Shown in pieces: positions 5,970 to 42,456 of a stretch of DNA of 64,000 nt. Each line of letters starts with the position of its first letter. Positions within the stretch are counted from its first letter, which is position 1. Under the pieces are notes generated by a model that saw only the letters and a program-made list of their open reading frames with translations, had not been told where the DNA came from and searched no databases. This DNA comes from Neocallimastix lanati (nom. inval.) (Eukaryota > Neocallimastigomycota > Neocallimastigomycetes > Neocallimastigales > Neocallimastigaceae): contig JACVTC010000034.1 of assembly GCA_016946835.1 (NCBI GenBank), positions 1,185,001 through 1,249,000 of the forward strand, read 5' to 3'. The position numbers were made by a program, and so were the translations under genes.

Positions 5970-6890
5970 TGTAAGAAACTCTAATAAAAAGAAATTTTTT
6001 TATAAGAGTTTATTTTTTATATTGATTGAGTTTATTATTAAAAAAAAAATAAAGAAAAATACTTATATTTAAATAGACGAAAAATAGAAAAAGTAGAAGA
6101 CTCGTATATAAAAATAAGTTTTTAAAACACAAAATTTTATTAAAAAAAATTTTAAACTTTAAATTTTAGGTTATTATTATTTTTAATATTTATCTTTATT
6201 AATATTTTTAATAATAATAACTCTTGATTTCTGAAAAAACAGAAATCAATCGTTATTTTATACTTTTTTATTTATTAATTAATCTTATTTTATATTTATT
6301 TATTATTATTATTTTTTTATCATGTGTCTGTTTAATTAATTAATTATTATTATTTTTTTTTTTCATGTGTTTATTTAATTAATAATTATTTAATATAATA
6401 TATTAATTATTTCTTAATTAAGCTATTGTTTGCTAGTCAGCTGTTGTATCTTCAGGAAAAGACTAGCAGAAAAACCTGAAGATTTTCTTAATTGTATTAA
6501 ATTAGAACGAATTATTTCAAAGAAATTTATTATTTAATTTAATTTAATTATTATTTAATATTATTGTGAAAATAATTTTAGAATATTAAATATTAATTTT
6601 AATTTATTTATTATTTAATATTATTGTAGAAATTATTTAGAAGAATTTTAAATTTTAAACATAATTGTATTTGTGAAAATTCTATTATTATTTTTTAATA
6701 TTTAATATTATTATACTTACGTATTTTAATTTTTTAATTAATAAAATTTATATTTAGATTAATTTGTAATTAATAAAATTTATATTTAGATTAATTTGTA
6801 ATTAATAAAATTTATATTTAGATTAATTTGTAATTAATAAAATTTATATTTAGACTAAGAAATATAGAAAATATTTCTATATTTCTTACA
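5970..6890 (-). repeat. 3' LTR of gypsy-B
   Basis: Direct-repeat partner of 11156-12078, ends TGTAAGAAA...TTTCTTACA. Contains 3.75 copies of a 32-bp tandem unit (AATTAATAAAATTTATATTT plus 12 more bases) at about 6736-6855, inside the U3 part, and a hairpin at 6226-6247. Confidence 0.92.
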
Positions 6891-6926: not shown

Positions 6927-8094
6927 TTAATTATTTATGTTATTATTAACTTCTATTAATTCCTTCTTTCTTTCCGTATAGGGTTCCAATTGGGAGATAT
7001 GAAATATCGGGTGGAGATGCATGTTTTCTGGTAATTCCAACCGATAATTCATTCTTCCCCGTTCTTCTAAAATTCTAAAAGGGCCAAGATATTGATTTGA
7101 CAGCTTTTTAGCAGGCTCATTTGTGAAATAATAACGTTTGAGCCAGACTTTATCGTTAACCTTAAGAATTGGTCCAGAAGATTTTTTATTGTCTCCGAAT
7201 CTTTTAAAATCTTCCTTAGCCTTAATTAAGTGTTTCTTTAATGAGTAAAAGTGGGCAGCCCAGTCACGAGTAAGAACGGAAGCATTATCTTTTAAGAGGA
7301 TTGGAGGAGAATCAATGTTGCAGCATGGGTTGAATCCATAATTGGCGTAAAAGGGGGATTTGCCAATTGATTTATGTAAGGAATTATTGTATGCGATTTC
7401 ACACAAGGGAAGATAAAAACACCAGTCTGTTTGGGCAGAGGAGCAATAACAACGTAGATATTGTTCGATCACTGAGTTTGCTCGTTCGATTTGTCCATTA
7501 CTCTGCTGATGGTGAGCTGTCGCAAGGCTCGGTTTAACACCTAAGGAGTGGCATAAGGAAGTCCAGAATTCGGATGAAAACTGGGATCCATGATCCGAAA
7601 CAATAACTTTTGGGAACCCGTGATAGCGAAAAACGTTAGCAAGAAGAAGTCTTGCAGTTAATTCAGCTGAAGGTACATCTGAACAAGGGATCAGATGAAT
7701 CATCTTGGTAAGGTGATCCGAGACAACCATGATACACGTACAATTTTGTGAATTGGGGAGAGAAACAATGAAATCCACACCGATGATTTCCCAAGGTTTG
7801 CTGGGAACTGGTAATGGTTGGATTTTCCCGTACGGCTTATGGCGGTGTATTTTGTTCTTCCCGCAAACTTCACAAGAGTATACATAATTTTGAACGTCAT
7901 TACGCATATTTGGCCACCAATAATAGCGCTTTAATTTTTCAAGAGTCTTATTGACACCTTGGTGACCATTAACTGGTGTGTCGTGGAACGACCTTAAGAT
8001 GTTAGGTTTTAATGGAAAAGGTACAATGATCCTTTTCTGAAAGTGAAGGATTCCTTCAACTATGCTAAAAACAGAAGATTTTAATTGGGAGTCT
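6927..8094 (-). CDS. pol: Integrase end of gypsy-B Pol (frameshifted from the upstream frame)
   Basis: The frame is open from about 8094 to the stop at 6927-6929 and continues the polyprotein of 8095-10989 in the +1 frame. The zinc-binding domain (HDTPVNGHQG ... CEVCGKNK) spans the first 80 or so residues, so a methionine start near 7907 would cut it in half and is not credible. Core residues: D in IGVDFIV, D in VSDHGSQF, E in SNGQIERAN. The C-terminus has the usual GPFRILEE and HPIFHISQLEPY blocks and stops about 15 residues later, without a chromodomain. It joins the reverse-transcribed DNA to the target. Confidence 0.88.
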
Positions 8095-10989
8095 TTATTT
8101 TTTAGTTTTTGAGAAAATGTCTCTACAATATTTGTCTTTTTTCTGAGCTTCTATCAATTTGTTAATATTTTCTATAGTAGTACAACAGAAATCTTCTTCT
8201 TTTAAAAGAGTTGTTTTGATAGATTTTTTACCATCTTGCAACTCCTTGTAGTCTGGTCTCCTGGAAAGTGCATCTGGTCTGCTGTTTTTTTCTCCAGATC
8301 TATATGATATTCTGTAATCAAATTTTGAGAGAAATAAACCCCATCTTATTTGTCTTTGGTTTAAGTGATGAGGTTTTTTGAAATAGAGTAAGTTTTTATG
8401 ATCTGTTATAATTTGAACTGGTAGCTTTGAACCTTCCAAGTGATGTCTCCACACTTCTAATGCGGTTATGACAGCTAAAAGCTCTTTATCATATATAGTA
8501 TAATTAGATTCAGTTAGGGTCATGGATCTAGAATAAAATGCTACTGGGTGAAGCTGATTATCTTCTTCACTTTTTTGAGACAAGATACATCCAACAGCGA
8601 AGTCACTTGCATCTGTTTCTACAATGAATTCTTTATCTGGGTCAGGATGAATAAGGAGTTTGTTACTTTTGAAGGATTCTTTTAACCTAGTAAATGCTTC
8701 ATCGGCTTTCTCATTCCATATGTACTGATTATCCTTTTTTAATAATTTTCTGAGTGGCTCCATGATTTGAGCAAAGTCTTTTATAAACCTCCTATAGAAA
8801 TTGCATAAGCCAAGAAAGCTTTGAAGTTCCTTGAGATTTTTTGGAACGGGCCACTCTAGAATAGATTTCAGCTTATCTTCATTCATAATAAGTCCTTTAG
8901 AAGAGATTCTGAAACCTAAGAAATTTGTTTCCTGGACATGGAAGTCGCACTTTTCTAATTTTGCGTATAATCCATTTTCTATTAGCCTACTCAATATGAG
9001 GGAAACATGACTTGTATGTTCTTTACTACTTTTAGAATAAATAATAATATCATCCAAGTAGATTTGAACAAATCTTCCAATAACATCAGAGAATATATCC
9101 TGTACAAAGTGTTGGAAGACTGAAGGTGCATTTCTTAGCCCGAACGGCATTACTAAGTATTCGTAATGTCCTATGGGAGTCCTAAACGCCGTCAAATATT
9201 CATGTCCTTCTCGTATTCTTATTAAATTATATGCTGATCTGAGATCCAGACGTGTAAAAATTACCGCACCCTGGAAGGATTCAATAAGATCATTTATCCT
9301 TGGTATAGGGTAACTATTTCTAATAGTAATTGAATTCAACTTGCGATAGTCAACACAAAGTCTTAACGTCCCATCATGTTTTCTTACAAAGAGAACTGGA
9401 GCACCAGCGGGTGAATTCGACTTCCGAATAAATCCCTTATTTAAATTTTCATTTATATATTCCTTTAAGGCTTTCATTTCTGTGATGGATAAAGAAAATA
9501 TTGGACCGTAGTATAGTTGACTTCCTGGGATTAAATCTATAGACATGTCATAATTTCTGTGGGGTGGCAATTTGTCGGCTTCTTTTTTCTCAAATGTTTT
9601 CTTTAAATTGAAGTAATATTTTTCAACAATTTCTTTTTTTGTTTCAATGCTTTGTTCTTTAGTACGTTCAATAGGGATTTCTTGTAAAGCAGCACAAAGA
9701 TCTACATCATTTTCTTCATTAAGAAGATTATCGTAGACAATTGTATCGTCAGGGACCATAGAAGCAGTGAAATCTTTAGAATGGAAGATAAATTTATTCC
9801 CTTTTGCTGAATCACAATGTTTTGCACAGTACTTTTCTAAGAAGTAAATAGTATTTTTTTCAAAATTTATATAGGGCTTATGTTTGTTAAGCCAATCTCT
9901 TCCTAGAATTCCAGTAATTCCTTGGAGTTGTAAACTGGCAATATTAAATTCAAATGTTTCATGGTGATCCATAAAGCTGAGTTTAAGAGGTTTAGTCACA
10001 TACTTAATATTCATAGATTTTCCATTTGGTAGTTGAATGTTAACAGGAGATGGTAGACCAGAATACGGAATCTTATTTATTTTAACGAAATTTTGACAAA
10101 TGAAACTTCTGGAAGAGCCAGAATCTATTAATAATTTAATTTTAATTTTATCATTGTTGACTACTAATAAAAAAGTGGAGGTCATCATATTTTTCTTGTT
10201 AGGAGTGAAATTTGCTGATAATAGATTATCAATTTTACTTTTCTTATATTTCTGATAATTTTTATTTCTATATTCACTCCTTTTGGATTCGGAGAATTTC
10301 CTTTTGTGATAGGTATCCTTAGGACTTTTATCTTTAGACTTTAGGTTGGTTTCCAAATAACATTTCTTATCCAATGTGATAATCAAATTAGTAGCTTCAA
10401 ATAAGTTAGAAGGCCGTTCGGCTTTATCAAATTCTTTTTGAACTTCTTCTAGGAGTCCTCTTCTTATTAAGTCAATGTAGACTCCATCATTCCATCCAAT
10501 TCTTTTGGCAAGCCTTCTAAATTCTATAGTATAAAAGGCTGCCTTTCCAAGGGTCCTTTGTCTTAAATTTAATAGTTTTTCAATAAGAGAATACCTCTGT
10601 TCTTTGCTATCACCGAAATTGTTGATTAGTAATTCTTTAAATTTCTCATATCCAAGTGTTTGAAGAATCCCTTCTTCCTTAAGAGATAAACCCCATTTTT
10701 TTGAAGGACCTTGTAATTTGTGAATTAAAAAAGAACATTTACTTTCTTCAGCAGTAAAAGAATTTGGGTTGTCATGGAAAAAGAGCTCACATTGGCTAAT
10801 AATTTCTATCATATTCAAGTTATTTTCATTTTCTTTTTCTTGTGTTAGTATGCCATTGGGTGAGAAGAAGGTTGGAATATATTCCGTAATAGTTGAAATT
10901 AACTTTGATGTTTCATCCGGCTTATTTTTTGAAATGGAAATGTCATTATTTCCATTGTTTTCTGAAGTACCTGCAATATTAATATTCAT
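8095..10989 (-). CDS. gag-pol: Gag-protease-RT-RNase H polyprotein of gypsy-B
   Basis: 964 codons from ATG at 10989. Residues 1 to about 230: Gag, with capsid-like helical sequence (GPSKKWGLSL, LLNLRQ) and a basic KRKFSESKRSEYRNK region but no CCHC knuckle. Protease LLIDSGSSRSF at about 288 (normal DSG). RT RLDLRSAYN about 573 and YLDD about 644. RNase H TDASDFAVG about 793, DKELLAV, ITDHKNL. The frame stops at 8095 after an A6 tract; one A fewer would carry it straight into the integrase, so the break is a single-base insertion (or an assembly error) in a homopolymer rather than a programmed site: the flanking bases do not allow a standard -1 slip. Otherwise intact. Confidence 0.92.
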   Translation of the reverse strand: MNINIAGTSENNGNNDISISKNKPDETSKLISTITEYIPTFFSPNGILTQEKENENNLNMIEIISQCELFFHDNPNSFTAEESKCSFLIHKLQGPSKKWGLSLKEEGILQTLGYEKFKELLINNFGDSKEQRYSLIEKLLNLRQRTLGKAAFYTIEFRRLAKRIGWNDGVYIDLIRRGLLEEVQKEFDKAERPSNLFEATNLIITLDKKCYLETNLKSKDKSPKDTYHKRKFSESKRSEYRNKNYQKYKKSKIDNLLSANFTPNKKNMMTSTFLLVVNNDKIKIKLLIDSGSSRSFICQNFVKINKIPYSGLPSPVNIQLPNGKSMNIKYVTKPLKLSFMDHHETFEFNIASLQLQGITGILGRDWLNKHKPYINFEKNTIYFLEKYCAKHCDSAKGNKFIFHSKDFTASMVPDDTIVYDNLLNEENDVDLCAALQEIPIERTKEQSIETKKEIVEKYYFNLKKTFEKKEADKLPPHRNYDMSIDLIPGSQLYYGPIFSLSITEMKALKEYINENLNKGFIRKSNSPAGAPVLFVRKHDGTLRLCVDYRKLNSITIRNSYPIPRINDLIESFQGAVIFTRLDLRSAYNLIRIREGHEYLTAFRTPIGHYEYLVMPFGLRNAPSVFQHFVQDIFSDVIGRFVQIYLDDIIIYSKSSKEHTSHVSLILSRLIENGLYAKLEKCDFHVQETNFLGFRISSKGLIMNEDKLKSILEWPVPKNLKELQSFLGLCNFYRRFIKDFAQIMEPLRKLLKKDNQYIWNEKADEAFTRLKESFKSNKLLIHPDPDKEFIVETDASDFAVGCILSQKSEEDNQLHPVAFYSRSMTLTESNYTIYDKELLAVITALEVWRHHLEGSKLPVQIITDHKNLLYFKKPHHLNQRQIRWGLFLSKFDYRISYRSGEKNSRPDALSRRPDYKELQDGKKSIKTTLLKEEDFCCTTIENINKLIEAQKKDKYCRDIFSKTKK

Positions 10990-11049
10990 TATGAAATAAA
11001 AATAAAGTGAATGTATAGAGTATAATATATTTTTTATAAAAATTATAAT

Positions 11050-11051
<2 letters not shown>

Positions 11052-11087
<36 letters not shown>

Positions 11088-11095
11088 TTTATTTT
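11052..11095 (-). repeat. A44 homopolymer in the gypsy-B leader
   Basis: A run of 44 T on the plus strand gives A44 on the coding strand, between the primer site (11144-11155) and the gag ATG (10989). Confidence 0.9.
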
Positions 11096-11143: not shown

Positions 11144-11155
11144 AAGAGTTATTAT
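11144..11155 (-). other. Predicted self-priming primer-binding site of gypsy-B
   Basis: Directly next to the 5' LTR the coding strand reads ATAATAACTCTT. No TGG matching a tRNA 3' end is present. The same LTR carries, on the coding strand, AAGAGTTATTAT (complement of 11402-11413), a perfect 12-base complement lying about 37 bases after a TATAAAA. If transcripts begin there, the mRNA 5' end can fold back and prime, as known for Tf1. Confidence 0.6.
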
Positions 11156-12078
11156 TGTAAGAAACTCTAATAAAAAGAAATTTTTTTATAAGAGTTTATT
11201 TTTTATATTGATTGAGTTTATTATTAAAAAAAAAAAATAAAGAAAAATACTTATATTTAAATAGACGAAAAATAGAAAAAGTAGAAGACTCGTATATAAA
11301 AATAAGTTTTTAAAACACAAAATTTTATTAAAAAAAATTTTAAACTTTAAATTTTAGGTTATTATTATTTTTAATATTTATCTTTATTAATATTTTTAAT
11401 AATAATAACTCTTGATTTCTGAAAAAACAGAAATCAATCGTTATTTTATACTTTTTTATTTATTAATTAATCTTATTTTATATTTATTTATTATTATTAT
11501 TTTTTTATCATGTGTCTGTTTAATTAATTAATTATTATTATTTTTTTTTTTCATGTGTTTATTTAATTAATAATTATTTAATATAATATATTAATTATTT
11601 CTTAATTAAGCTATTGTTTGCTAGTCAGCTGTTGTATCTTCAGGAAAAGACTAGCAGAAAAACCTGAAGATTTTCTTAATTGTATTAAATTAGAACGAAT
11701 TATTTCAAAGAAATTTATTATTTAATTTAATTTAATTATTATTTAATATTATTGTGAAAATAATTTTAGAATATTAAATATTAATTTTAATTTATTTATT
11801 ATTTAATATTATTGTAGAAATTATTTAGAAGAATTTTAAATTTTAAACATAATTGTATTTGTGAAAATTCTATTATTATTTTTTAATATTTAATATTATT
11901 ATACTTACGTATTTTAATTTTTTAATTAATAAAATTTATATTTAGATTAATTTGTAATTAATAAAATTTATATTTAGATTAATTTGTAATTAATAAAATT
12001 TATATTTAGATTAATTTGTAATTAATAAAATTTATATTTAGACTAAGAAATATAGAAAATATTTCTATATTTCTTACA
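11156..12078 (-). repeat. 5' LTR of gypsy-B
   Basis: Same ends and sequence as 5970-6890 apart from two extra A in one A run. Coding-strand order: U3 12078 to about 11414, probable transcription start near 11413, R/U5 to 11156. U3 contains the 32-bp tandem units. Confidence 0.92.
11414..11450 (-). promoter_or_regulatory. LTR promoter of gypsy-B: TATA box and hairpin at the probable start
   Basis: Coding strand: TATAAAA from 11450 to 11444, then GATTTCTG-T6-CAGAAATC (11435-11414), a perfect 8-bp inverted repeat with a 6-base loop, ending exactly where AAGAGTTATTAT begins. Spacing fits a TATA-driven start around 11413-11420. Confidence 0.5.
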
Positions 12079-15641: not shown

Positions 15642-16659
15642 TGATGAAGAATGAAATTATAAAATCAAATATTATAATAAAATTTATTTAAAAATTAAAT
15701 TTTAACCTTAAATAAGATTAAATTATCTGAACCTTAAATAATTCTGCTTTAATAAAATTAAAACTAAAAATCAATCATGATCTTCTAGAAAAATTGTGTT
15801 TCTAGAAAAAAGAAAAATATTATAATAACTTTAAAAGATAACTTTTAATAATCTTGTTTTTATCAACGATATGATTTCTTTTTTTCTTTATTGCTATTCT
15901 TTTATTTCTTTATTATTCCTTTATTTCTATAATAAAATATAATTATTCTTTTATTTCTTTTAATATAAAAAAATATTTATTCTTTTATTTCTTTTCTTAC
16001 TAAAATTATAAATACCTTAAATTCGTGTAAAAATATAAATACTTGTAAATATTTCTTTTAATTATTCTTCGTTGTTATTAAATTATTAAATTAATAAAAT
16101 AATAAATAATAACCAAAATAAATAAATAAAATAAATTAGATAATTATTTAATAAAAATTAATAAAGATAAATAATAATTATTTTACGTTATAATTAAATA
16201 AAAAAATAAAATGAAATAGTTTAATAAAATTATAAATTTTAGCTATAATTTAGAATAGTTTAATATTATTAGAATAGATTAATAATAAAAATAATTTATT
16301 CTTTAAAATTATTATAATAAATAATTAATAATTAATAAAAACTTATTTTATATAAAATTATTATAAATAAAGTTAATAATAAAAATCTAATAGTAAAAAT
16401 TTAATAAAATATGAAAATTGATAATTCATTTAGTGTATAATTAAATAATTATTAATTTAATTAATAAAAATAATTTATTATTATTAGAATAGTTATTAAA
16501 CTAGGAAATAATAATAAATAATAACGAATAATAATAAGTAATAATAAATAATCATAGATAACAATTAATAAATAATAAGGTATAAAATACTTTCGATAAG
16601 CAATTACCACTTTTAGGATATTTCTAAATAAATTAAGGTAATTGTTACATTTTATCATT
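15642..16659 (+). repeat. LTR relic between composite region and A2
   Basis: Begins TGATGAAGAATG after ...AACATTT and runs to the start of A2's 5' LTR, about 1018 bp. A TATAAATA-like site lies near 16033. The 3' end is poorly defined (a CA followed by TT directly before TGAAAAAG). No coding seen. Confidence 0.4.
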
Positions 16660-17013
16660 TGAAAAAGAACAAAACAATTATTAAATAGTAATAATTTTCA
16701 TAATATATTATAAATATTCCAATTATAATTATTATTGATTCCTTATTAAACTAAACTTTCCTATATTCTTCCTTCATGGAAATTCTGAAATATTGATGGT
16801 AAATATTATTATTTTTCTAAAAGTTTCTAAAAGATTTCTATATTAAGAATCCCTTAAATAAATTCTATAAATTTTTAGAAAATTCTAAATAATTAAAATA
16901 AAAATATTGGTTAATTATTAATATATATATATATATAAAAAAAGATTTTTTTTATTTATTCAGAACAAATTAGTAATAAATATATTATATATTTTAATAT
17001 AAATTACCAATTG

Positions 17014-17049
<36 letters not shown>

Positions 17050-17670
17050 TTTTTATTCCACTAATAAAATTAAAACTTATTAGTAATGACTTTCTAATGT
17101 TTTCGAAAAGATTTTATCATATTTATTCAATTATACTCTTAATAAATATAATATATATTGAATAATTATTAAAATCAATTTCAAAAATCCTAATTTTAAT
17201 TCAAACTCTTTTTTTTTACAATTAAAATAAAATTGAAAAAGTATAAATAGACTTATATCTACTCGATAAAAAAAAGCAGAGTCTTTCCTTAGATTATAAT
17301 AATACTATTAACAATATTAAAATAATAAAAATAATATTAATAATAAGAATATTTTTTTTAGTTTAGTTTTAAATAGTTTAGTTTTAAATAGTTTAGTTTT
17401 AATAGTTATTTAATTAAATTTTTAGTTATAATAGTTTAGTTAATATTAGTTTAGTGCATAGTTTAATAAATAGTTTCATTTAGTTATAAAAAAAATATTT
17501 TGTTTAATAAATAGTTGTAATAATTAATTTAATTATTAGTTAAAAAAAATAACAAATAAACAAATAAACAAATAAACAAATAAATAAATTAATAAATAAA
17601 TAAAAATAAAAAAAAATAACAAAATAAATTGTTTTTATTGTAATCCTTTTATTTCTTATATAACCGAACA
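16660..17670 (+). repeat. 5' LTR of A2
   Basis: Starts TGAAAAAGAAC, ends TATATAACCGAACA; 1011 bp. TATAAATA at 17242-17249 is the likely promoter box. Contains a long A run (about 17016-17045) and repeated GTTTAGTTTTAAATA units (about 17360-17405). Confidence 0.85.
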
Positions 17671-17677
17671 TTAGAAA

Positions 17678-17694
17678 TGGTGGAGATATCGGGG
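17678..17694 (+). other. Probable tRNA primer-binding site of A2
   Basis: Seven bases after the LTR end the sequence TGGTGGAGATATCGGGG begins with TGG, as expected for pairing with a tRNA 3' CCA. The implied tRNA end is ...CTCCACCA. Which tRNA this is cannot be told from the window. Confidence 0.45.
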
Positions 17695-18447
17695 ATATAA
17701 GAAATAAAAGTAAGGAAAGATAAATATTATAAAAAGAAAAAAAATTTTTTTTGTTAATTATAACAATAAAAAAAAAATTTTTAAAATTTTAGTTTATTAA
17801 TTGTGATATATAAAATTTAAAATTCTTATAATTAATAATTACTATATACTTATATAGTATTTCACAACGGTATACTGAGTAGAGGTTGCGTTTAAAAATA
17901 TAAAAATAATTAAATAATAGAGAGTAGAATAGGGAAGCCTCTTGTAGAAGCGAGAGAGTAAAGGGTTTTAGAATAAGATTATAAATTACCAGTAAGTTGG
18001 ATATTGAAAAAGCCGTAAATTCCATGTTTCAATTGGTAGGCACAATAAAAAACTTTATTTATAATTGACGGTTCTAAGATCGAGGTTGAAAATCGTAGAG
18101 AGACGACCTGCGGGTTTCGAATATTTTATTTAATTAAAATATATGCAAATGAAATAATAAAAAAAAAAAATAAAAAAATAAAAAAAAAAATTATTTTTGA
18201 TTCTTAGATATATAATTAGCAGTTGGGAATAACTGGATTATATATATATTATATTTCTTAATTTTAATTATAGACTGTCGAAAGGATTTCGAGTCTACAA
18301 TAGGAGGAATAGACTGTCAAAAGGATTTTTGAGTCTAAAAATTTAATTTATATTATTTTATAAAATCAATAATAATTACTCTATATAAAAAAGTAAATTT
18401 TTTTTATTAAGTTGGAATATTTATTAATACATTTTTTATTATCAAAG
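17695..18447 (+). other. Untranslated leader of A2
   Basis: About 750 bases between the primer site and the gag ATG. It has a less AT-rich patch at 18000-18120 and two tandem hairpins at 18271-18337. No reading frame of its own is convincing. Confidence 0.6.
18271..18337 (+). other. Twin hairpins in the A2 leader
   Basis: Two near-copies, 18271-18297 and 18310-18337. Each pairs TAGAC with GTCTA and, after a TG bulge, an inner stem around a GGA loop: TCGAAA/TTTCGA in the first, TCAAAA/TTTTGA in the second. The G-to-A and C-to-T changes keep the pairing. They end 110 bases before gag, where packaging or dimerisation signals often lie in retroelements; the role is inferred. Confidence 0.6.
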
Positions 18448-19344
18448 ATGACTAACCAGGAAATCGATTTCAAATCTTTGAAGAAGGAACTCAAAGATAT
18501 TGAAAAATTAACCAAGGATAACTTAGATATTAAGACTTGGGCCTCAGAAATACAATTATGGATTGAGCTTGAAGAAGTTACTAATCCAAAGAAAATATTT
18601 ATTGCATGCGTTTTAACATCTACGGGTGAACCGAGGAAGGTAATTCAAGAATTGAAGAATAATTTGGATAATTACGATAGTGATGATGAAGACGAAGATA
18701 ATGAGGAAAGTGACAATGAAAGTAACGACGAAAATGATACTTCTTATCCTACATTCTCAGAGATTATTGATGCATTAGAGGCGTTTTACGGCATTAAGGA
18801 AGATCAGAATTTATTAGTAAGAGAAATCCGTTCCCTAAGAATAAAACGTAATGAAAAAGTGAAAGATTTTAACACACGCTTTAGATCTTTATACTTGAAA
18901 CTAGACAAGAAGCATAAGAAGCAAGTAAGTGTTTTAGATTACATGTATTCTTTAAGAAACAATGAAGAAGCATGGAAAAGATGGAAAAGAGTCTCCTTTC
19001 AAAATGATATTTCTTTAAAACAAGCTTATGAAGCAGCTGAAAAGGTAGATAGATTAATGATTAACCAAACCAGACTTACAAATCAAGAGAATTACCATCG
19101 AAGCAATTATAATAGTAATAATACTTTCAAACGTAATTCTCCCTCTATACCTTATAATAAGAAATTAGACCCTGAAGAACTAAAGAAAACTAATGTAGAT
19201 GTTGAAAGGGAAAATCTTACTAGTAAAATGAAACATTTAACTATTAAAACTTGTTTCTATTGTGAAGAAAAAGGTCATTACAGTAATCATTGTCCTAAAC
19301 TTCAGTCCATTATTCAAGAAAACAAAAGAAAGTACTTCAACTAA
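18448..19344 (+). CDS. gag: Gag of gypsy-A copy 2
   Basis: ATG at 18448 (MTNQEIDFKSLKK) is chosen because it is the first ATG of the frame and starts the conserved helical N-terminus; an upstream TTG would only add leader sequence. About 298 residues. Order: N-terminal helices, a D/E-rich stretch (codons around 75-95, DDEDEDNEESDNE), capsid-like FYGIKEDQN region, and a CX2CX4HX4C knuckle (CFYCEEKGHYSNHC, about 19252-19293). The frame ends at a TAA (19342-19344) six codons before the slippery heptamer at 19359, so the frameshift cannot be used; past the TAA the same frame still reads to TTA AAT and a later TAG. The TAA is therefore probably an inactivating mutation. Confidence 0.88.
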   Translation: MTNQEIDFKSLKKELKDIEKLTKDNLDIKTWASEIQLWIELEEVTNPKKIFIACVLTSTGEPRKVIQELKNNLDNYDSDDEDEDNEESDNESNDENDTSYPTFSEIIDALEAFYGIKEDQNLLVREIRSLRIKRNEKVKDFNTRFRSLYLKLDKKHKKQVSVLDYMYSLRNNEEAWKRWKRVSFQNDISLKQAYEAAEKVDRLMINQTRLTNQENYHRSNYNSNNTFKRNSPSIPYNKKLDPEELKKTNVDVERENLTSKMKHLTIKTCFYCEEKGHYSNHCPKLQSIIQENKRKYFN

Positions 19345-19358
19345 AACCACAATATTCC

Positions 19359-19391
19359 TTTAAATCAATAGTCGGGAGTAGAAGCACTCCC
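19359..19391 (+). promoter_or_regulatory. Relic -1 frameshift signal of A2
   Basis: TTTAAAT at 19359-19365 is in phase with gag (T TTA AAT), followed after 8 bases by GGGAGT (19374-19379), a loop AGAAGC and ACTCCC (19386-19391), a perfect 6-bp stem. The -1 frame after it matches A1 Pol (SRSTP...LASIQ). Confidence 0.7.
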
Positions 19392-22300
19392 AGAACAAAA
19401 AAACTAGCTTCAATTCAATTTCACCCTAATAAAGAGATTTCCTTCCCAGATGTTCTAACAGTAAATAAAATTGGTAGTAAGGAAGAAACGAACTCAGAAA
19501 ACAATAATAGAAGTTGTAATACTAATAGTCTTTATGAAATAAACCATGACCCAGATGAGGAAGAAAATCTCAATGAAGCCAATTTTACCGTGGCGGCTGC
19601 AAAAAGAAAAATAGAAAAAGTAGATGATACTATAGAAAACTATGAAAATCGTGAATACAAAAGTTTGAAAAATAATCCTAGACCAATAGCAAACCCGCAC
19701 TTCGAAAGAAGAGAGAAAGAGAATTGGAAATAAATCCCCCAAAACCAGCTGAAAAGTAACTACATACTTCCTTTATAGTCCAACCTAGAAATAGTAAAGA
19801 AAAGGCCAAGGCTAAAGAAGCTCGTGATAAAGAGAGAGGAAGTATAAGCATTGAACCAAAAATCAAATCTAATGCAAAATCTACAAATAAAGAAGAAACA
19901 ACCCCAATAATAAATATAGATGACGACCTAGAGGACTTAGAAAACCTCAAAGAAATAGAAACAATTGAAAAGTTAATGGAAGAAGGAAATACGGAAAAGA
20001 AAATCTCCACCCCTAAAGTTAAACGGAAAATTCAAATGTTAGAGGATCAAGAAGAATATGATGTCTTAAAAGATTTAAATAATATAAGATGCAACATCAC
20101 ATTCGGACAATTAATAAATTCTTCACCCCAAATTAGATCTCAAGTTTCTCAGGGGCTAAAGTTAGTTAAGAAAGATAAAATAGCCGGAGCAGTAAAAATA
20201 TTACTGCCATGACAGTCATGGTCAATAACGTAGACCACTCTTACAAAAGCAATAGAAAGGAAATCCAAGAGGATGATATTGCCATGGTTGACTGCACAGT
20301 TGAAGGCATTAAAGGTAAACTTTTAATCGACTCTTGTAGTAATCTAAATATAATAACTCGAAAATATTTAGACAAAATTCCAAGAAACTTTGAACCAATT
20401 GGTATAAGCTGTGGTCTCATCCGTCTTTCTACTAACAATGATGAGTACTCAGAGAGTGTCATAATTAGAGTACCTATTCGAATTAACAATATTACTATGA
20501 CTGTAAATTGTCGAATTGTAGAAAAAGAAGATCCATTCTATGATGTTTTAATAAATCTTAAAACACAAGCTGTTCATAGATTATTCATACATCCTGTATT
20601 AAACAGTCTTTGTAGATTCTCAACTAAAGGACTCATTGAAAAGATTGCATAGTTAAATAATGATTTTGAAGACGAACCAAAACTTTTATGTTCAGTAACA
20701 AAAATTGACGATAAAGAAGAAGTTAATATTAAAGCAAAGTTAAAAACCATTGAAGATTGAAGGATTACCTCCCTTAGATTATATACATAATGATATTTTT
20801 AAAAATACTCTGAATAAAGACTTTCAAGACAAAATTCTTAAATTATTGGAGGATAACATAGAAATTGTTGCGACTTCCTCAGAAGAATTAACACCATCAG
20901 ATTTGACTCCCCATAAAATTGAATTAAAAGAAGGAACTAAACCGGTTAAGCAGAAGAGTTATAAGTTAACAAAATTTAAATCTGATATTCTGAAAGAATT
21001 ACTGATTGACCTAATTGAGAGGAAATTAATTGAACCCTCTCATTCAACTTGGAGTTCTCCAGTAGTATTGGTTCCAAAACCAAATGGAAAATGGAGATTA
21101 TGTGTAGATTACAGAAAAGTTAATGAAGCCACTGAAAAAGACTCTTACGCATTACCTTATATCGATGAAATATTTGATAGTCTACAAGGCGCAAAAATTT
21201 TTACTACCATGCATCTTTACTCTGGTTACCATCAGATATTAATGAATGATGAAAGTGTAGAGATCACTACCTTTACTACTAAATTCGGAAATTATCAATT
21301 CAAAGTCATGCCTTTTGGTCTCACGAACGCTCCAGCTACTTTTCAACGTGAGATGAATCAAATTCTTTTCCCCTTAATAGGTGTATGTGTATACAATTTT
21401 ATCGATGACGTACTGATATATTCTAAAAGTGTTGAAGAACATCTTACCCATATCCAACAAGTCCTTGAAATTTTTCGTAAACACAAATTGAAAATCAATA
21501 TAGAAAAATGCCAATTCTTTAGGACAGAAGTAGAAGTACTAGGTCATAAACTATCTACTAAATGATTGAGTCCAATGGAAAGTAAAATAGAAGCTATTAA
21601 AAAGTGGAATCCTCCCACTAATATTAACGAACTAAGGTCATTCTTAGGGACAGTCGGTTACTACCAAAAATTCATTTTTAACTATTCTAAAATAACAGCT
21701 CCTTTATGTAAACTTTTACGTAAGAACATAAAGTATGTCTGGAATGACGAACAACAAGTATGTTTTGAAAAGCTTAAAGAATGTTTAATAAATGCACCTA
21801 TCCTTAATTTCCTGATTTTAGTAAACCCTTTATTATCAGAACAGATGCCTCCTATGATGGACTCGGAGGAGTATTACTTCAAAAGGATGAAATCACTGGT
21901 AAGGAACATCCTGCTCATTTTATAAGTCGTACCTTATCGAAGTCAGAGAAAAATTATGGAATAACAGACTTGGAAGGTTTAGCTTTATACTTCGCTTTAG
22001 AAAAGTTAAAATCATACATTATGGGAAATCCGCACACTACCATAATTTATACTGATCATAGACCTTTACTTGGGCTTTTTAAGAACAAGGAACCGAAGAA
22101 TGCTCGACAAACGAGATGGTGTTTAACAGCAAGTTCCTTAGGTGTTGGTATTCGTTACGAACCTGGAAAAAAGAATGTCTTAGCAGATGCATTGTCTCGA
22201 ATGAAATGTGAAAAGGATAAGAAATTGCTAGCCATGAAAGTTACTCAAGAAAAAGATGAAACATTATTGTCTAAAGTAATTAAAGACTTTATATCGGAAA

Positions 22301-23421
22301 AATTTACCACTATTGACGGTGAAGACTATTTTGTAGACGGAAATACTTATAGGAAATTGGTCACTGATACAGCCGAAAAAGTTAACCTGATTTTGGCAGC
22401 TCATGACATTGGTCATGAAGGCTATTACAAAAATACCATAGGCTAAAGAAAATCTATTACTGGAACAATATGATAATCGATGTCAAAAGAATAATTGGTA
22501 AGTGTGAAAAATGCCAGCTCAACAGACCGCAACCCTATCCTGATCCTACAGAAGATACTCCAACTAAAGTAGAAGGATCTTTTGTACATTTAGGATTAGA
22601 CATTATAGGGTCCGCTTGTGAAAACTAAGAATAATAAACAGTTTATCTTAGTAGTTGTTGACTACTTTACGAAGTGGGTCGAAGCAGAAGCTACTGAAAC
22701 TATTACTTCCCAAGATGTGATTAAATTTCTCATAAATGTGTTCGCCCGACATGGTGTTCCGCAAATCATCACTACTGATAATGGGGTGCATTTTACCTCT
22801 GACATGACTAAAGTTTTTCTAGATTTATATGATGTCTACGTAAAATTTGTTTCTATCTATCATTCAGAATCAAACGGCTTAACCGAAAATAGGAATAAAG
22901 AAATAGGTAAATTACTTCGATTGCTAGGAGAAAAGAATAAAGACTGGGATGAGATGTTACTTTCTGCGTTATGGGCCCTCAGAACAACAAAAAACTCAGT
23001 TACCAACTACTCTAGCTTTGAACTAGTATACGGAAGAGAAGATCAGCAACCATTCGACATTGCGGCTAGACAAACAAAAGACCTATATAAATCTTCGAAT
23101 GAAGTATTGCTGGAAAAATTTGTTTCACATTACAGATGGGTTTTGGAAGCTGCCGAGAATAGTAAAAACGCAAGTAAATACTGGGCAACTAGGAGAGAAG
23201 AAAAGAATAGCCTAAATCAAGGAAAAAGAATAGCTGTTGGCGATTTAGTACTAGTTCGAAATTTTAACCGCACAAAGCTTGAATCATATTTCGTAGGTCC
23301 TTTAAAAGTCATTAAGAAACAACATAATACCTTAACTTTAGCCGATCCAAATACCGGAATCCAATTAAATAGAAATGTCCATTTGAAGAATATAGTAAAG
23401 TATAATTCAGCCTCCATTTAG
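19366..23421 (+). pseudogene. pol: Pol of gypsy-A copy 2, broken
   Basis: Homologous along its length to A1 Pol but cut into pieces: open stretches at about 19976-20212, 20209-20652 (protease, LIDSCSNLN), 20750-21565 (RT), 21566-21925 (RT thumb/RNase H start), 21970-22446 (RNase H, zinc domain) and 22618-23421 (integrase core and C-terminus). Breaks include a TAA near 19757, a frameshift at 20209, TAG at 20650, TGA at 21563 (before LSPMES), a frameshift near 21830 and one at 22430. RT motif A reads MHLYSGYHQ where A1 has MDLYSGYHQ, so a catalytic aspartate is lost; FIDD is kept. The integrase end is complete to the stop at 23421, showing what A1 lacks. Confidence 0.9.
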
Positions 23422-23432
23422 CCTGAATTTAT

Positions 23433-23444
23433 GCGAGGGCATCT
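23433..23444 (+). other. Polypurine tract of A2
   Basis: GCGAGGGCATCT directly before the 3' LTR TG; the same core is found in A1 and A3. Confidence 0.65.
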
Positions 23445-23802
23445 TGAAAAAGAACAAAATAATAATTATTAAATTGTAATAATTTTCATAATATATTACA
23501 AATATTCCAATTATAATTATTATTGATTCCTTATTAAACTAAACTTTCCTATATTCTTCCTTCATGGAAATTCTAAAATATTGATAGTAAATATTATTAT
23601 ATTTCTAAAAGTTTCTAAAAGATTTCTATATTAAGAATCCCTTAAATAAATTCTATAAATTTTTAGAAAATTCTAAATAATTAAAATAAAAATATTGGTT
23701 AATTATTAATATATATATATATATAAAAAAAAAAAATTTTTTTTTATTTATTCAGAATAAATTAGTAATAAATATATTATATATTTTAATTATTACGAAT
23801 TG

Positions 23803-23835
<33 letters not shown>

Positions 23836-24519
23836 TTCCACTAATAAATTTTAAACTTATTAGTAATGACTTTCTAATGTTTTCGAAAAGATTTTATCAT
23901 ATTTATTCAATTATACTCTTAATAAATATAATATATATTGAATAATTATTAAAATCAATTTCAAAAATCCTAATTTTAATTCAAACTCTTTTTTTTTATT
24001 GAGGCTTTACAATTAAAAATAAAATTGAAAAAGTATAAATAGACCTATGTCTATTCGATAAAAAAAAAGTAGAGTCTTTCCTTAGATTATAAATAATACT
24101 ATTAACAATATTAAAATAATAAAAATAATATTAATAATAAGAATAATTTTTTTAGTTTAGTTTTAAATAGTTTAGTTTTAAATAGTTTAGTTTTAAATAG
24201 TTTAGTTTTAAATAGTTTAGTTTTAATAGTTAGTTATTTAATTAAATTTTTTAGTTATAATAATTTAGTTAATATTATTAAGTAATTTATTTAGTTTAGT
24301 GCATAGTTTAATAAATAGTTTCATTTAGTTATAAAAATATATATATATATATATATATATTTTGTTTAATAAATAGTTGTAATAATTAATTTAATTATTA
24401 GTTAAAAAAAATAAACAAATAAATAAATAAAAAAAATAAATAAATAAAAATAAAATAAAAAAAAATAACAAAATAAATTGTTTTTATTGTAATCCTTTTA
24501 TTTCTTATATAACCGAACA
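23445..24519 (+). repeat. 3' LTR of A2
   Basis: Matches 16660-17670 from TGAAAAAGAAC to TATATAACCGAACA, 1075 bp; TATAAATA at 24034-24041. Longer than the 5' LTR because of extra GTTTAGTTTTAAATA units (about 24153-24225) and an (AT)n expansion at 24337-24360. Confidence 0.85.
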
Positions 24520-24948
24520 TCGATGGTACAAGACCAATTGAAAAATGAAAATTAAATACGACTAAATTTACAAAAAAAAATAGAAAATCAAATTAATCCA
24601 TAAAAGGATAAATTAAATTGAAATTTATATGTAAAGTATAAAATTAGAAATTATTAAGACTCTCTCTTTTCCACTTATAACTTTATTAAATGTAAAAAAT
24701 TAGATTGAATGACAATTGATCTAAATTGAGATTTCAATTGATCAAAAATAAAATTTTAATAAAAATTAAATAAACAATTTATAAATTAGAATTTAAGTAT
24801 TTAGTTATAATATACAATTTTAGTGTGAATTACTTATTATTGTGAATATTAATATAATTAGATTTAAATTTTAAAAATTCATTTACATTGTACCATTCGA
24901 TGTGTAATAATCATACTAAGTGCTATTACTTAATAAGATTAATAACTT
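24520..24948 (+). other. Spacer between A2 and A3
   Basis: No gene. The stretch 24520-24906 starts TCGATGGTACAA and ends with the near inverted copy TTGTACCATTCGA, so it may be a small inverted-repeat element or a remnant of the A3 leader; no clear target duplication is visible. Confidence 0.35.
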
Positions 24949-36117: not shown

Positions 36118-37257
36118 TTAACTAAGCATAATTATAGCTTTATTGTTTGAGAACTTATTACAATCGTAATTTTGACCTTTAATACCTTGAAATTTGGCAA
36201 CTGATTTCCAGTAACGTTCTAAAATATCGTCATATTTTTCACATTTATATTTTTTGATTTTTTTATACAGTGTTCTAGATTCTTTAGTCCAGGAATAATG
36301 ATGCATTTTGGGAATAGATTTAATAAGATCCTTTATAATACAGTTTGATTTACTCCATTTTGCAAATGATTTAATCTGTAAGGCTGCGCAGACACCAGCA
36401 ATAGGAGGAATGCTTAGATCTCGAGATAAAGCATAAGTACTCATAGTAGAATTATGTCTAATATAGTCATTGTCTTCTGAACTTGTTTTACCATTTTTAG
36501 AGAATGAGCCGATACACCAAAATAGACTAGTATTAATTAATGTTTGAATTCTGGCCGTTCTAGATTTGTTTGAACCAAGTAAAGGAGAATAATAAATTAC
36601 TTTACCAATAATAAAGGATTGAAGAACTTTTTTCTTGAATGCAATAGGAATAAGTTTATTTGAGAAGAAACGTGTAAATGAAAGAAGGGATTTTCTAACT
36701 TTAAAATGCATGTGAGATATAATGTGTTCTAGTATGAGATCATCAGAAAAATGAATACCAAAATAAATATAACTAGAAACTTTAGGAATAGCATTCATTC
36801 CTAAATAGAAGGTTGGGTCACTATAGTTTGGAGAAGACTGGAAGTTCATTGATATTATAACCATAGTTGCACATTTTTCAATACCAAAAGTCATTTCATT
36901 TAAATTAGCCCATTTACGTACCTTTTTTAATAATTTTTCTAAATTTTTTGCACTTGGAGCAATTAGAACAACATCATCAGCAAAGAGTCTACCACAACAC
37001 TTTTTTCTTCCAATATTAACACCATACTTTTCACAGTTATTTAATATATCATTGAATGAATAAATTGAATAAGATCGGAGATAATGGACAACCTTGACGA
37101 ACACCTCTTTTAATAGGAAATTCATTTGATAACATTGAAGCAAATCGAGCACGTGCTTTAGATGAAGTATATAAATTACATAGAAAATCAAAACATTTAC
37201 CATGTACTCCATAATGATATAATTTAGTAAGAATGTTAAAAATTGGAACTGAATCAT
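36118..37257 (-). pseudogene. LINE-alpha RT palm/thumb and C-terminal region (copy 1)
   Basis: Real homology starts near 37060 (FNDILNNCEKYG), in the frame next to that of the preceding piece. Contains the catalytic CCGRLFADDVVLIAP block (about 36955-37000), KCATMVI, and a thumb/connection region (LLGSNKSRTARIQTLIN, RDLSIPPIAGVCA). Nearly identical to copy 2 over 36113-36740. One T fewer than copy 2 produces the TAA at 36118 just before homology ends. Confidence 0.85.
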
Positions 37258-37732
37258 AAGCTTTTTTAAGATCTAAAAAGGCTAAATATGTGAATTTTCC
37301 TTGAAATTTTCTTCTTTGGCAAATTTCTCTAACGGAAATGAATAAACTAATGCATTCTTCACGGTTGCGAAAACCAAATTGTTCAGGTCTAATGAAATTG
37401 TGTGAGAGTGCGTAAGTAGATATTCTATCTGTTATAATTTTTGAAATGATTTTCAGTCCAACATTAATGAGAGAAATACCTCGATAATTACTACAATCTG
37501 ATAGGTCACCTTTCTTAGGGATTGATACAATAGAAGCAGAGTTCCATTTTTGAGGAAAGGACCCATTCCATATTTTATTAAAAATCAATTTAGGACACTT
37601 TCCAGCGGCATGATGTGTTTCTAGTAATACTTCATTGCAAAACAGAGCTTTGTAGAATTCAATCGGGATACCATCGGGGCCGGGTGCTTTGTTGTTTTTC
37701 ATAGATGAAATAATTTTTTCTAATATCGTCAA
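37049..37732 (-). pseudogene. LINE-alpha RT fingers (copy 1)
   Basis: KNNKAPGPDGIPIEFYKAL, SIPKKGDLSDCSNYRGISL, FIRPEQFGFRNREECISLF, YLAFLDLKKAYDSVP and GVRQGCPLSPILFNLFI are the standard non-LTR RT blocks. One-base frameshifts separate it from the upstream piece (about 37735) and from the downstream piece (about 37060). Confidence 0.88.
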
Positions 37733-37895
37733 TCGTAATAGGATTGTTGATATTCCAGGTAGAGGATCTAAGACTAATATTCCTTAAAGCATGAATCCAA
37801 AAGTTACGATTAAGGCTGTGACCTGAGGGATCAGAAGCTAGATCTTTATAATATTCAGCCCATCTATCTAATTGTTTAGTAGGAGAGATAATATC

Positions 37896-39545
37896 TTAAC
37901 CAAATTTAGATTTTATGCAAGTAGGGGAGGTAGATGAATACGATGGTTTAGCCATTTTTTTTAAACATCTCCAACCATTTTTGAAATCTTTATTCAAAAA
38001 ATAATTACCAATTTTTACTATATTAGCCTTAAATCTAGCAGAACGAAATTTGCTCTTTGTTTTCTTGATTAATTTGCAAAGTTTTTCATATTTATTAAAT
38101 TGTTCAAGGTAATTATCAACATTTTCACAGTTAAAGTAAGGCTTAATATTTCGAAATGCAATATGTTTTTCATGAGACAGTTTTTTGATGTAAGAAGGAC
38201 AATGAAAGGCAGAGCCCTTTAAATATGTTGGAATGAAAGCCTTAATATCTTTCCCGATATTATTTGCTGTATTGATAAATTTTTCTACCATTTCATCAGC
38301 CGTGAGCGAATTGTAATGAGAATCGAGGTCATTTGCTAAGATTGAAAAATAATTATGTGATAAAATATCTGAATTTTTTGTTTTACAAATATGTGTAGAC
38401 CATTTAGAGACTTTAGCAGGCCTAATAAAGCCATCGGAGAGAACTATGTTGCAAGAAAGTAAAATAAGTTTATGATCAGAAATACCATAAAATGAAGTGT
38501 AAACCGAGGTTTTATTAAAATAAGCTGCCAAAGCCTCATTATAGATGACATGGTCAATGCAAGATGATCTAGTATCTTTGGCATAAGTAAATTGATTACC
38601 ATATAAGGGAGCAATATACCAATTAGGAAAATTATTTGAAATGTATGTTTTGATCTTCTTTAATGACATGTTAAAATCACCAACTAGGACAGCAGGAACG
38701 TCTTTTCTATTGTGAAAACGTAACCATTGAGAAAGTTCATCAAAAGCAGCTAATCTTTCTTCCTTCCATTTGCTTTGAGGGAAGTAGATATTACCAATAG
38801 TACATTTTTGATTCCAGAAAGAAGTAATATTTACTGAAATGATATATTTGTATAAAAGCGGTTCTTGGAAGAAAGAGCACAAAGAATGAACACCAATAAA
38901 GAGTCCTCTCATACCAGGGATTTTAGGATTAGCTCTAAGGAAAACTGAGTTGTAATATGGGATTAATGGTGATGAAATATCTTTTGGAAGATATTTACTT
39001 TTTTCAGTTTCTTGTAAACAGATACATATAGGTTTAAAAGTGGAGTTGAGATATAAAATACTATCACGCTTTTCAGTATTCCAACCGTTAATATTCCAAC
39101 TAACACAGAGATTAAAGAAAAAAGAATTTGAATTTAGATGGCTAGAGAAAAAATCTTTCGCCATAGGATTAAGTTCAACATCAATGATATTAGATTTTCT
39201 TGACTTGTTCATTTGTTTAAGTTTATTACACAAGGTCCAGGTAATTTTAGCTGTTTCAGGAATTTTATCTCTTAAGAAATCTAAAACATCAAAAAATCTG
39301 AGATCATTTTTGTGCTTATTAACCCTAATAATGAAGTATGAGCCGTACCTTGGAGGAAAAAGTTTTTTAACATATGGAATAATTTCATTGTAGTTAGGGA
39401 TCTTACTAATAACTTGAGCCAATAGATTGGTAGGGGACCAAGAATTAAGGTTATGGATAAAGATAAGGCTATAATTGTTCATATGATTACCGAAGCAGTA
39501 GAAACCACGATGGAAGGGAGTAGTATTAACTGAGCTAGAAAGCAT
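37896..39545 (-). pseudogene. LINE-alpha N-terminal RRM-like domain and AP endonuclease (copy 1)
   Basis: 549 codons from ATG at 39545. Residues 24-105 (YSLIFIHNLNSW ... GSYFIIRVN ... AKITWTL) show a beta-alpha-beta-beta-alpha-beta pattern like an RNA-binding RRM. Residues about 145-375 are the endonuclease: CVSWNINGWN, CLQETEK, RGLFIGVH, IGNIYFP, LVGDFN, SCIDHVI, SDHKLILLS. It nicks target DNA to prime reverse transcription. The frame stops at 37896; the next frame continues (QLDRWAEYYKDLASDP) toward RT, so a one-base indel lies near 37895. Confidence 0.87.
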
Positions 39546-40036
39546 CCTTGTTTAGAGTTTGATGATAACAGAACCGACTTAATTTCCATTTATTGTGAAT
39601 TGATTATAAGGATTGTATACCAAAGAATTATATATAAAATATTAACATTTAAGTTTACTGAATATAAAAGTTAATTGTTTCACATGAATTGAATTTCCTA
39701 AGATATATTAAAAAACGATATTAGTGAAAAAATTATTTATTCAATAAAATATAATGTAAAATAATATATTTATTTAAAGTAAAAAATATTTTAAAATGAT
39801 ATGAAAATTAAAAATACCTAAAGTAAAAATTTATATAGAGATATAAAGTAAAATATATAAAGATAAAAAAAAAAATATATATATATATAGAGAGAATAGA
39901 AAAATTTTAGAAATATAAGAGAAAAAAATAAAAACAATATTGTTAGTAGTATAGTGTAAAAAATTCTTTTGATTGAAAAATTGATTTAAAAAACTATAGT
40001 TATGATTTATTTAAAAAGATAAAAATTGCATTAAAA
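39546..40036. other. AT-rich DNA, former target of the LINE insertions
   Basis: No gene seen. May include the alpha copy 1 5' UTR at its left edge. It ends in the left copy of the LINE-gamma target duplication (40037-40058). Confidence 0.5.
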
Positions 40037-40179
40037 ATTAAAAAGTAATTTAGATTTTTTTTTTTTTTTTTAGACTTAGAGAATAACTTTATTTAATTTA
40101 TAATAATAATAAAATTACATGATTTTAAAGGAAAAAGAAATAATAAAATACATGAAATAAAATATTATATATTATAAAA

Positions 40180-40548
40180 TTATAAAAGTGCATTAGAAGC
40201 AATAGCCTCTAACTTTTCCCATTCCTCGATAATAACACCACATCCATTATTGCGAGAAATAATTTCAGTATTAGTGTTATCAATCGAATCTGTATCTGTC
40301 ATTTCACTGGGAGGTGAAAATCCATGCCTTATCATTTCGACGTCGACGCTCTTGGTATCGGTAGATTCAACGGAATACCATTTCATCATCAAACTAAAAG
40401 ATCGACAAATTAATGGTATTACGTTTGGAACAGTTGACGAAGTTGAACTTTGTTTAAAAATATTGTCAACTAATTGTCTTAGTTCCCCATCATTAGTTTT
40501 AATTTTTGAATATATTGAACGCCCACCAAGAAGCATAATATATAACAA
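40180..40548 (-). pseudogene. LINE-gamma C-terminal tail (copy 1)
   Basis: Reads LLGGRSIYSKIKTNDGELRQLVDNIF to ...WEKLEAIASNALL, matching gamma copy 2 except for a 30-bp deletion (loss of FVGIAEFLT-like residues). Upstream 40549-40660 is not coding, so the domain is cut off from the RT. Confidence 0.8.
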
Positions 40549-40660
40549 GACTAAGAATAAACGAAATTAAAATATATTTCTTCAATGGGAGAGGAACAGA
40601 TTTATTAATAAGAAATCGAAAGTACAAATTTAACTTGACATTTAAATTACTGTTTAATTT

Positions 40661-41085
40661 TTATTGTATAGGTTTCAGTGATAAAAATTCATCAAAAGGA
40701 ATACCAAGATAGGTATAGTTGTCAGTTTTAGGTAATTTTTTACTACCAATAAAGAAAGATGGATCTTCATAATTTATCGGTTTAACAAAGTTAATTGGTT
40801 TTACAACAAGAGTAGCACACTTATTAATTCCAAAAGTCATTTCATTCTTAATAGCCCATTCATGAACTTTATTCAAAATTTTCTTAAGAGCTTGTTTAGA
40901 TGGAGCAACTAAAACAATATCATCCGCAAAAAGTCCACCACAACAATATTGAGAATCTAAATATTGACCATACTTATCACAATTATCCAGTATATCATTA
41001 ATGAACAAATTGAATAAAATAGGAGATAGAGGGCATCCTTGTCTAACACCACGATTAATCGAAAATTCTTCTGAGAGATTACCAT
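40661..41085 (-). pseudogene. LINE-gamma RT palm fragment (copy 1)
   Basis: GVRQGCPLSPILFNLFINDIL continues into CCGGLFADDIVLVAPSKQ, INKCATLVVKP and YTYLGIPFDE, then stops at 40661. Catalytic ADD present. Truncated at 5' by the end of the element. Confidence 0.83.
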
Positions 41086-42080: not shown

Positions 42081-42155
42081 GGGCATCCTTGTCTAACACC
42101 ATGATTAATCGAAAATTCTTCTGAGAGATTACCATTAAAAAGTAATTTAGATTTT

Positions 42156-42259
42156 ATTATTATAGTATTTGCTGACCCCCTCAGAAACCATTCCATAAAT
42201 GTATTAATCTTATAAAAAAAATACATGATATTATTAGTAACGACACACTTATTTTCACT
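42156..42259. other. Short stretch of old target DNA between LINE blocks
   Basis: Lies between the right target duplication of gamma copy 1 and the left one of truncated beta (42260-42271). It is open on the minus strand but I see no credible RT motif in it. Confidence 0.45.
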
Positions 42260-42271
42260 ATCATTAATGTT

Positions 42272-42422
42272 TTTTTTTTTTTTTTTTTTTAACGGCAGCA
42301 AACTTGTTTCATCTTTATTAATTAAATATTTGATAAAATACATGTAATAAAATAATAAAAAAAAAAAAGATAAAAAAATAAACAAAAAAATAAAACACAA
42401 AATAAAATAAAATAATGGTATA

Positions 42423-42426
<4 letters not shown>
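42272..42426 (-). mobile_element. Truncated LINE-beta, 3' half (continues at 49513-49642)
   Basis: Poly(T) to 42290 then AACGGCAGCAAACTTG, the beta 3' UTR as at 44037. Its remaining 5' portion lies at 49513-49642 beyond the alpha insertion. Outer target duplication ATCATTAATGTT at 42260-42271 and 49643-49654. Confidence 0.8.

Positions 42427-42456
<30 letters not shown>

Follow-up and report, generated by a model that had tools for sequence, protein, structure and literature searches.

The Ty3/gypsy LTR retrotransposon gypsy-B, carried on the minus strand of the 64,000-nt stretch of DNA analysed here (the window), is very probably self-primed, and position 11413, give or take ~2 nt, is where its mRNA would begin, as read from the sequence. 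The site at which copying would begin matches a segment of the element's own LTR, and this match is kept although its letters change in related families, so that priming by the element's own RNA is most likely, rather than by a tRNA. The earlier note on this DNA had proposed self-priming by comparison with Tf1, and the proposal gains support from the persistence of the pairing in relatives and from the distant elements in which other letters pair.

In the proposed course of events, the mRNA would begin at or within ~2 nt of 11413, its first 12 nt (AAGAGUUAUUAU) would fold back onto the PBS at the 5' LTR border, the element's RNase H would cut the RNA after that 12-nt stretch, by analogy with Tf1, and the freed 3' end would start minus-strand synthesis at the LTR border. 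What is seen directly is the pairing, its position, its persistence in relatives and its recurrence with other letters in distant elements, whereas the site of transcript initiation, the RNase H cut and the use of the 12 nt as a primer are inferred. An RNase H domain is present in gypsy-B.

Anatomy of gypsy-B and the 12-nt match

The features of gypsy-B, all on the minus strand, are as follows.

11156-12078, minus strand: 5' LTR, TGTAAGAAA...TTTCTTACA, 923 nt
5970-6890, minus strand: 3' LTR, coordinates derived from the LTR-LTR alignment
11144-11155, minus strand: PBS ATAATAACTCTT, then CC; abuts the 5' LTR without a gap
11402-11413, minus strand: proposed self-primer AAGAGTTATTAT, start of R and proposed mRNA 5' end
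6214-6225, minus strand: copy of the primer sequence in the 3' LTR
11441-11450, minus strand: TATA box TATAAAATAA, 37 nt upstream of the primer
11412-11437, minus strand: hairpin at the U3/R border, TTGATTTCTG-TTTTTT-CAGAAATCAA, overlapping primer bases 1-2
11159-11200, minus strand: U5 stem-loop adjoining the PBS
8095-10989, minus strand: coding frame for Gag, protease, RT and RNase H, with its ATG at 10989
6927-8150, minus strand: integrase frame ending in SH3_Tf2-1, without a chromodomain; in the window copy, a frame other than that of Gag-RT

The LTRs are identical at 926/929 positions over the aligned stretch, and the alignment places AAAAA on each side of the element. The interval that had been given for the LTR region was too short, as the LTR runs on to 12078. 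The PBS stands directly after the terminal CA of the 5' LTR. A TGG, by which a tRNA-type PBS would be judged, is absent from the 56 nt downstream of this LTR, in agreement with the earlier note.

Both 12-mers lie exactly where they had been reported, at 11144-11155 (minus strand) and 11402-11413. The perfect complement of the PBS ATAATAACTCTT is found in the same LTR at 11413-11402, and its distance of 37 nt from the T at 11450 in the TATA box was likewise confirmed. As the last A of the LTR also pairs, the match amounts to 13 nt. When the gypsy-B LTR was shuffled 3,000 times with its dinucleotides preserved, a full 12-mer complement appeared once, and a 13-nt complement appeared in none of 1,000 shuffles. 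The window contains three matches to the 12-mer versus 0.10 expected, and genome-wide counts are 1,232+1,241 versus 179+196 for the reversed control.

In the window copy, the frames at 8095-11088 and 6927-8150 differ, the break lying between RNase H and integrase. Among 13 further copies whose RT is at least 98% identical, 6 have a single stop-free frame, 1382-1390 aa long, and the break is therefore the window copy's own. Hence, the single Gag-Pol frame ascribed to gypsy-B holds for these sister copies and not for the copy in the window. The Gag of gypsy-B gave no match to any zinc-knuckle model up to E 10 (HMMER filters on).

A second element of the same superfamily in the same genome, gypsy-A (16656-24520, plus strand; LTRs 88% identical), differs from gypsy-B in its PBS, TGGTGGAGATATCGGGG, which is located ~7 nt after the LTR and looks like a tRNA 3'-end site. 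Gypsy-A has no unusual self-complement, given that 318 of 1,000 shuffles match. The 14-mer complement of its PBS occurs 496+499 times in the genome versus 0 for the control, and a tRNA matching this PBS was found neither in the three loci scanned nor in the window.

Elsewhere in the window, the long frames at 44272-48738 and 36118-44034 (both minus strand) appear by eye to encode a non-LTR element endonuclease and RT with a serine-rich stretch, and several fragments look related to them. An 819-aa frame at 50348-52807 (minus strand) is, by eye, glycogen phosphorylase-like and would be a host gene among the elements.

The pair in gypsy-B relatives and the U3/R hairpin

A genome-wide search with an RT piece gave 3,797 first-look candidates, of which the best 150 were scored (77-100% identity), and 32 regions possibly holding the 5' LTRs of gypsy-B relatives were fetched. 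These were subjected to a sequence-blind scan, the sole assumptions being that the LTR ends in CA and that a perfect complement lies 120-500 nt upstream of it. An exact pair was identified in 21 of the 32, and in 20 of these 21 its core is AAGAGTTATTAT / ATAATAACTCTT, despite differing flanks and spacing. In most relatives with an RT identity of 77-82% and both segments found, the 13-mers are unchanged and the flanks differ; the distance between primer and PBS ranges from 172 to 332 nt across 12 gypsy-B families. The exception, L054, has AATTAGAGTTATTATT / AATAATAACTCTAATT, a longer match with the edge pair changed; in the same family, L136 is the same as L054, and L135 has a C at that edge.

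The scan found no exact pair in 11 of the 32 relatives, partly owing to a misjudged range or a damaged LTR. Ten regions are without the pair. The ranges fetched for L051 and L072 may miss the LTR, and L041 runs into other DNA. L057 retains the primer segment, its PBS not being found, and L062 (C754) retains the primer segment and has lost U5 and the PBS. No LTR border was recognised in L053, L065, L067 and L068. L053 (C334), with 80% RT identity and no standard R or PBS recognised, may hold another priming sequence. In the remaining region, L064 (C94), the LTR ends unusually, in GAGCCCATAACA, and is followed by the PBS ATAATAACTCTTC; a search upstream found no primer segment.

Forty further, shorter regions contained the pair in 34 cases, namely 6/11 in gypsy-B's own family and 9/9 and 19/20 in two other families; the one region lacking it in the last of these, L111, reads N. 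The earlier note had held that family members with non-pairing segments would speak against self-priming. Where both segments were located they pair, except for one mismatch in the primer segment of L059 and two mismatches in L078, a member of gypsy-B's own family.

Certain copies nearly identical to gypsy-B are without a PBS, and these count against self-priming. In C149 and C232, gypsy-B coding sequence is joined to an LTR of another kind, which a poly-A stretch links to the leader; the primer segment is present and the PBS is not. C409 has the same look over the fetched part. At least three of these copies are present, so some multiplied while lacking a PBS, perhaps through a switch of template or through duplication at the DNA level. 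The loci L081-L083, L137 and L138 (C409, C232, C149) look as though their LTR had been exchanged or the template had switched.

In 12 gypsy-B families, the TATA box precedes the primer start by 35-39 nt. A hairpin spans the proposed start, with a 3' arm that enters the primer, formed by TTGATTTCTG/CAGAAATCAA in the window and by CTCTTGATTTC/GAAATCAAGAG, CTGTTGATTTTC/GAAAATCAAGAG and CTCAAATTTCTTT/AAAGAAATTAGAG in relatives, the last two with one mismatch each. In all 12 gypsy-B families it is matched by only 0-1 of 200 simple shuffles. A transcript starting at R has no 5' arm at its 5' end and both arms at its 3' end, so that the hairpin can form only at the RNA 3' end. As predicted for 11 gypsy-B families, the hairpin context has -11.8 to -18.2 kcal/mol versus -12.1 to -12.5 for primer:PBS, and in the 3' context most of the primer's first bases are paired. 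In the 5' context, the first four bases are mostly free, and 10 of the 11 families show local pairing of bases 5-8; in the window's own family, bases 3 and 4 are open in both contexts. On these predicted folds, the primer's 3' copy may be masked within the hairpin, which might also act at the DNA level, at the promoter.

Alternatively, the mRNA could start further upstream and include the hairpin, with the primer arising by processing and not as the capped 5' end. The position of the hairpin exactly at the U3/R border in 12/12 gypsy-B families would be in keeping with this. Such a start is nonetheless improbable, since the 5' arm begins only ~11-13 nt after the start of the TATA box in gypsy-B families, and the hairpin (-12.2 to -18.2 kcal/mol) would outcompete primer:PBS (-12.1) in 10 of 11 families, the exception being family f1348 (-11.8 versus -12.5). 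Moreover, the C at the PBS edge, described below, fits a capped end at the primer start. A start at or within ~2 nt of 11413 would fit both the TATA spacing and this C, and is most likely.

The predicted fold from R to the PBS in the window contains the primer:PBS duplex and the U5 stem-loop beside the PBS (z -4.06). The minimum-energy fold contains the duplex in 6 of 12 sequences and is without it in the other six. The U5 stem beside the PBS was reached by 0-5 of 200 shuffles in 12/12 gypsy-B families, with differing letters, and is weak in the gypsy-B copy L045 under dinucleotide-type shuffles (17/200). A third, 'pretzel' duplex 3' of the PBS was looked for in 11 sequences, none of which beat 95% of shuffles. 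In addition to the usual pair, L047 (C11) has an 11-nt match, CTAGATAAGAG / CTCTTATCTAG, between the 3' flank of the PBS and a site upstream of R, which may be due to chance.

Distant chromodomain elements and the PBS edge

Searches with SH3_Tf2-1 and the chromodomain led to 11 distant elements, which were fetched at both ends. The Pfam chromodomain was present in all six scanned (F1542, F1570, F1538, F1646, F1411 and F1406), and the remaining five were located at chromodomain search matches. Both LTRs were delimited in eight (F1542, F1570, F1538, F1646, F1406b, F1414, F1423 and F1395), and an LTR pair could not be delimited in F1411, F1406 and F1398. In 8/8 delimited elements, the PBS lies right after ..TTACA and has an 11-12-nt perfect complement in the element's own LTR, and in 8/8 its letters differ from those of gypsy-B. 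The pairs are:

F1542, F1570: AGTTGGAAAAT / ATTTTCCAACT
F1538: GTAATTGTTATT / AATAACAATTAC
F1646: GTATTAGTTATT / AATAACTAATAC
F1406b: GTGCTTTTATT / AATAAAAGCAC
F1414, F1423: GTGTTTTTATT / AATAAAAACAC
F1395: GTGTTTTTTATT / AATAAAAAACAC

Two paired substitutions separate F1538 from F1646, a single one separates F1406b from F1414, and F1414 is set apart from F1395 by a paired 1-bp insertion. In each of seven elements (F1423 left out), at most 6 of 1,000 shuffles reached the observed match length, and the primer starts 34-49 nt after the TATA box in seven distant families. The co-variation of the 12-mers that the earlier note had looked to among gypsy-B copies is thus seen mainly across element groups, the pair being almost constant within the gypsy-B clade. 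As judged by RT identity to gypsy-B, which is 55-59% for the chromodomain families and 40% for gypsy-A, gypsy-B is nearer to the chromodomain families of this genome than to gypsy-A. An RT tree supported the groups gypsy-B, F1542/F1570 and F1414/F1406b/F1395, and the positions of F1538 and F1646 were not settled by it.

These elements also bear on the possibility that ATAATAACTCTT is primed by some host RNA that is not a tRNA 3' end, for instance a fragment from inside a tRNA, with the match to the LTR incidental. Some copia lineages are primed by half-tRNAs, according to the portion of PMC6317226 available. However, a host primer explains neither the presence of the primer sequence at a fixed distance from the TATA box in diverged LTRs nor its change together with the PBS in distant elements, and we consider it highly improbable. 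A reading in which the 12-mers serve separately as promoter motifs or protein-binding sites, complementary by chance, would agree with their near-invariance in the gypsy-B clade, as invariant pairs are uninformative on pairing, but is contradicted by distant elements with other letters that are still complementary and is extremely improbable.

The U3/R hairpin extends to F1406b (1/200 shuffles) and is weaker in F1542 (4/200) and F1570 (10/200). It was not seen in F1538, F1646, F1414 and F1395, which rules out the hairpin lock as a universal feature. The U5 stem was ruled out as universal too, F1406b having a stem 10 nt away (3/200) and the other six distant families none.

The first base past the complement of the PBS is C in 8/8 distant elements. 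It is also C in 8/8 further F1542/F1570 copies, in 52 of 59 gypsy-B-type loci containing fixed search strings for both segments, and in 238 of the 279 exact junctions with ACAATAATAACTCTT genome-wide (other bases in 41: A 20, G 16, T 5), although the weight of these counts rests on few groups, since copies within a family are not independent and the downstream C content varies from 0.03 to 0.28 in the self-primed elements tested. Among the seven loci with another base, the match is extended into U3 in L054, L136, L060, L061 and L073, and the base is A in L047 and T in L056. A G at this edge would lengthen the match in most gypsy-B families. Gypsy-B's own family varies here, with CC in the window, L076, L077, L079 and L080, C in L078, and GA with an extended match in L061 and L073; F1542 copies have C followed by C or G.

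Tf1 reportedly retains its primer, as a paper from 2006 has it in its title. The first nucleotide that MMLV enzymes add at an m7G cap is nearly always dC, as described in the available part of PMC6885630. If a retained, capped primer were copied up to its m7G cap, a C would be carried into the PBS edge; C or CC would be left at the far edge of the PBS, and extra U3 letters would appear where transcription began slightly upstream. The edge C would fit such an imprint of the mRNA cap, with common ancestry or selection for this base as other explanations. Taken jointly, the proposals that integrated copies record the parent's mRNA start in this way and that the hairpin of the gypsy-B clade locks the 3' primer copy, leaving only the 5' copy to prime, are tentative, and we regard the combination as plausible but somewhat short of probable. 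If true, genome sequence by itself would show where transcription of self-primed elements begins, and the LTR would carry its own switch distinguishing the 5' copy from the 3' copy.

Comparison with known self-primed elements

Self-priming has been described for Tf1, Tf2, Tj1 and relatives, and the Tf1/sushi group comprises Tf1, Tf2, Tj1, Tosmo and Tcry1, as far as the accessible text of PMC4600332 and PMC10085805 extends. Within the same compass, gypsy-B resembles this group in its PBS complementary to the 5' part of its own (here proposed) mRNA, its LTR end CA and its lack of TGG. Tf1 and Tf2 have a single frame, as do 6 of the 13 sister copies of gypsy-B, and the Gag of the fission-yeast elements, which is described there as being without CCHC, may be comparable to that of gypsy-B, in which no zinc-knuckle model found a match up to E 10. 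Gypsy-B differs from the Tf1/sushi elements in being without a chromodomain, in the third duplex, which was not found, and in the hairpin over the U3/R border. The chromodomain was detected neither in the window copy nor in 3/3 gypsy-B relatives by the same scan that found it in six other families.

Self-priming has been shown in Tf1 and elsewhere mostly inferred for one element at a time. Here, a single genome with several element groups, different primers and hundreds of junctions provides evidence from covariation. A search of the literature gave no title or opening of an abstract naming a cap imprint at the PBS or a hairpin over a self-primer, which is weak evidence of absence given that subscription papers fell largely outside it. 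The cap imprint and the hairpin lock are testable ideas on the copying of the primer and the choice of the 5' copy.

Self-priming has also been predicted, from sequence alone, for the Tcn1 and TAR plant lineages; in the available sections of PMC6317226, Tcn1 bears a chromodomain and TAR belongs to Ty1/copia, both unlike gypsy-B. Skipper of Dictyostelium is, like gypsy-B, a gypsy element without a TGG PBS, but it is characterised in the part of PMC5006619 at hand by a polypyrimidine stretch, no LTR complement and the presence of a chromodomain. The likeness to Tf1 that the earlier note had drawn stands in function, the PBS matching the element's own LTR, and falls short in the missing chromodomain. 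Gypsy-B would thus work like Tf1 and, given the result of the chromodomain test, is classed outside Tf1/sushi as a variant of self-primed gypsy elements, which would place self-priming in a lineage without a chromodomain.
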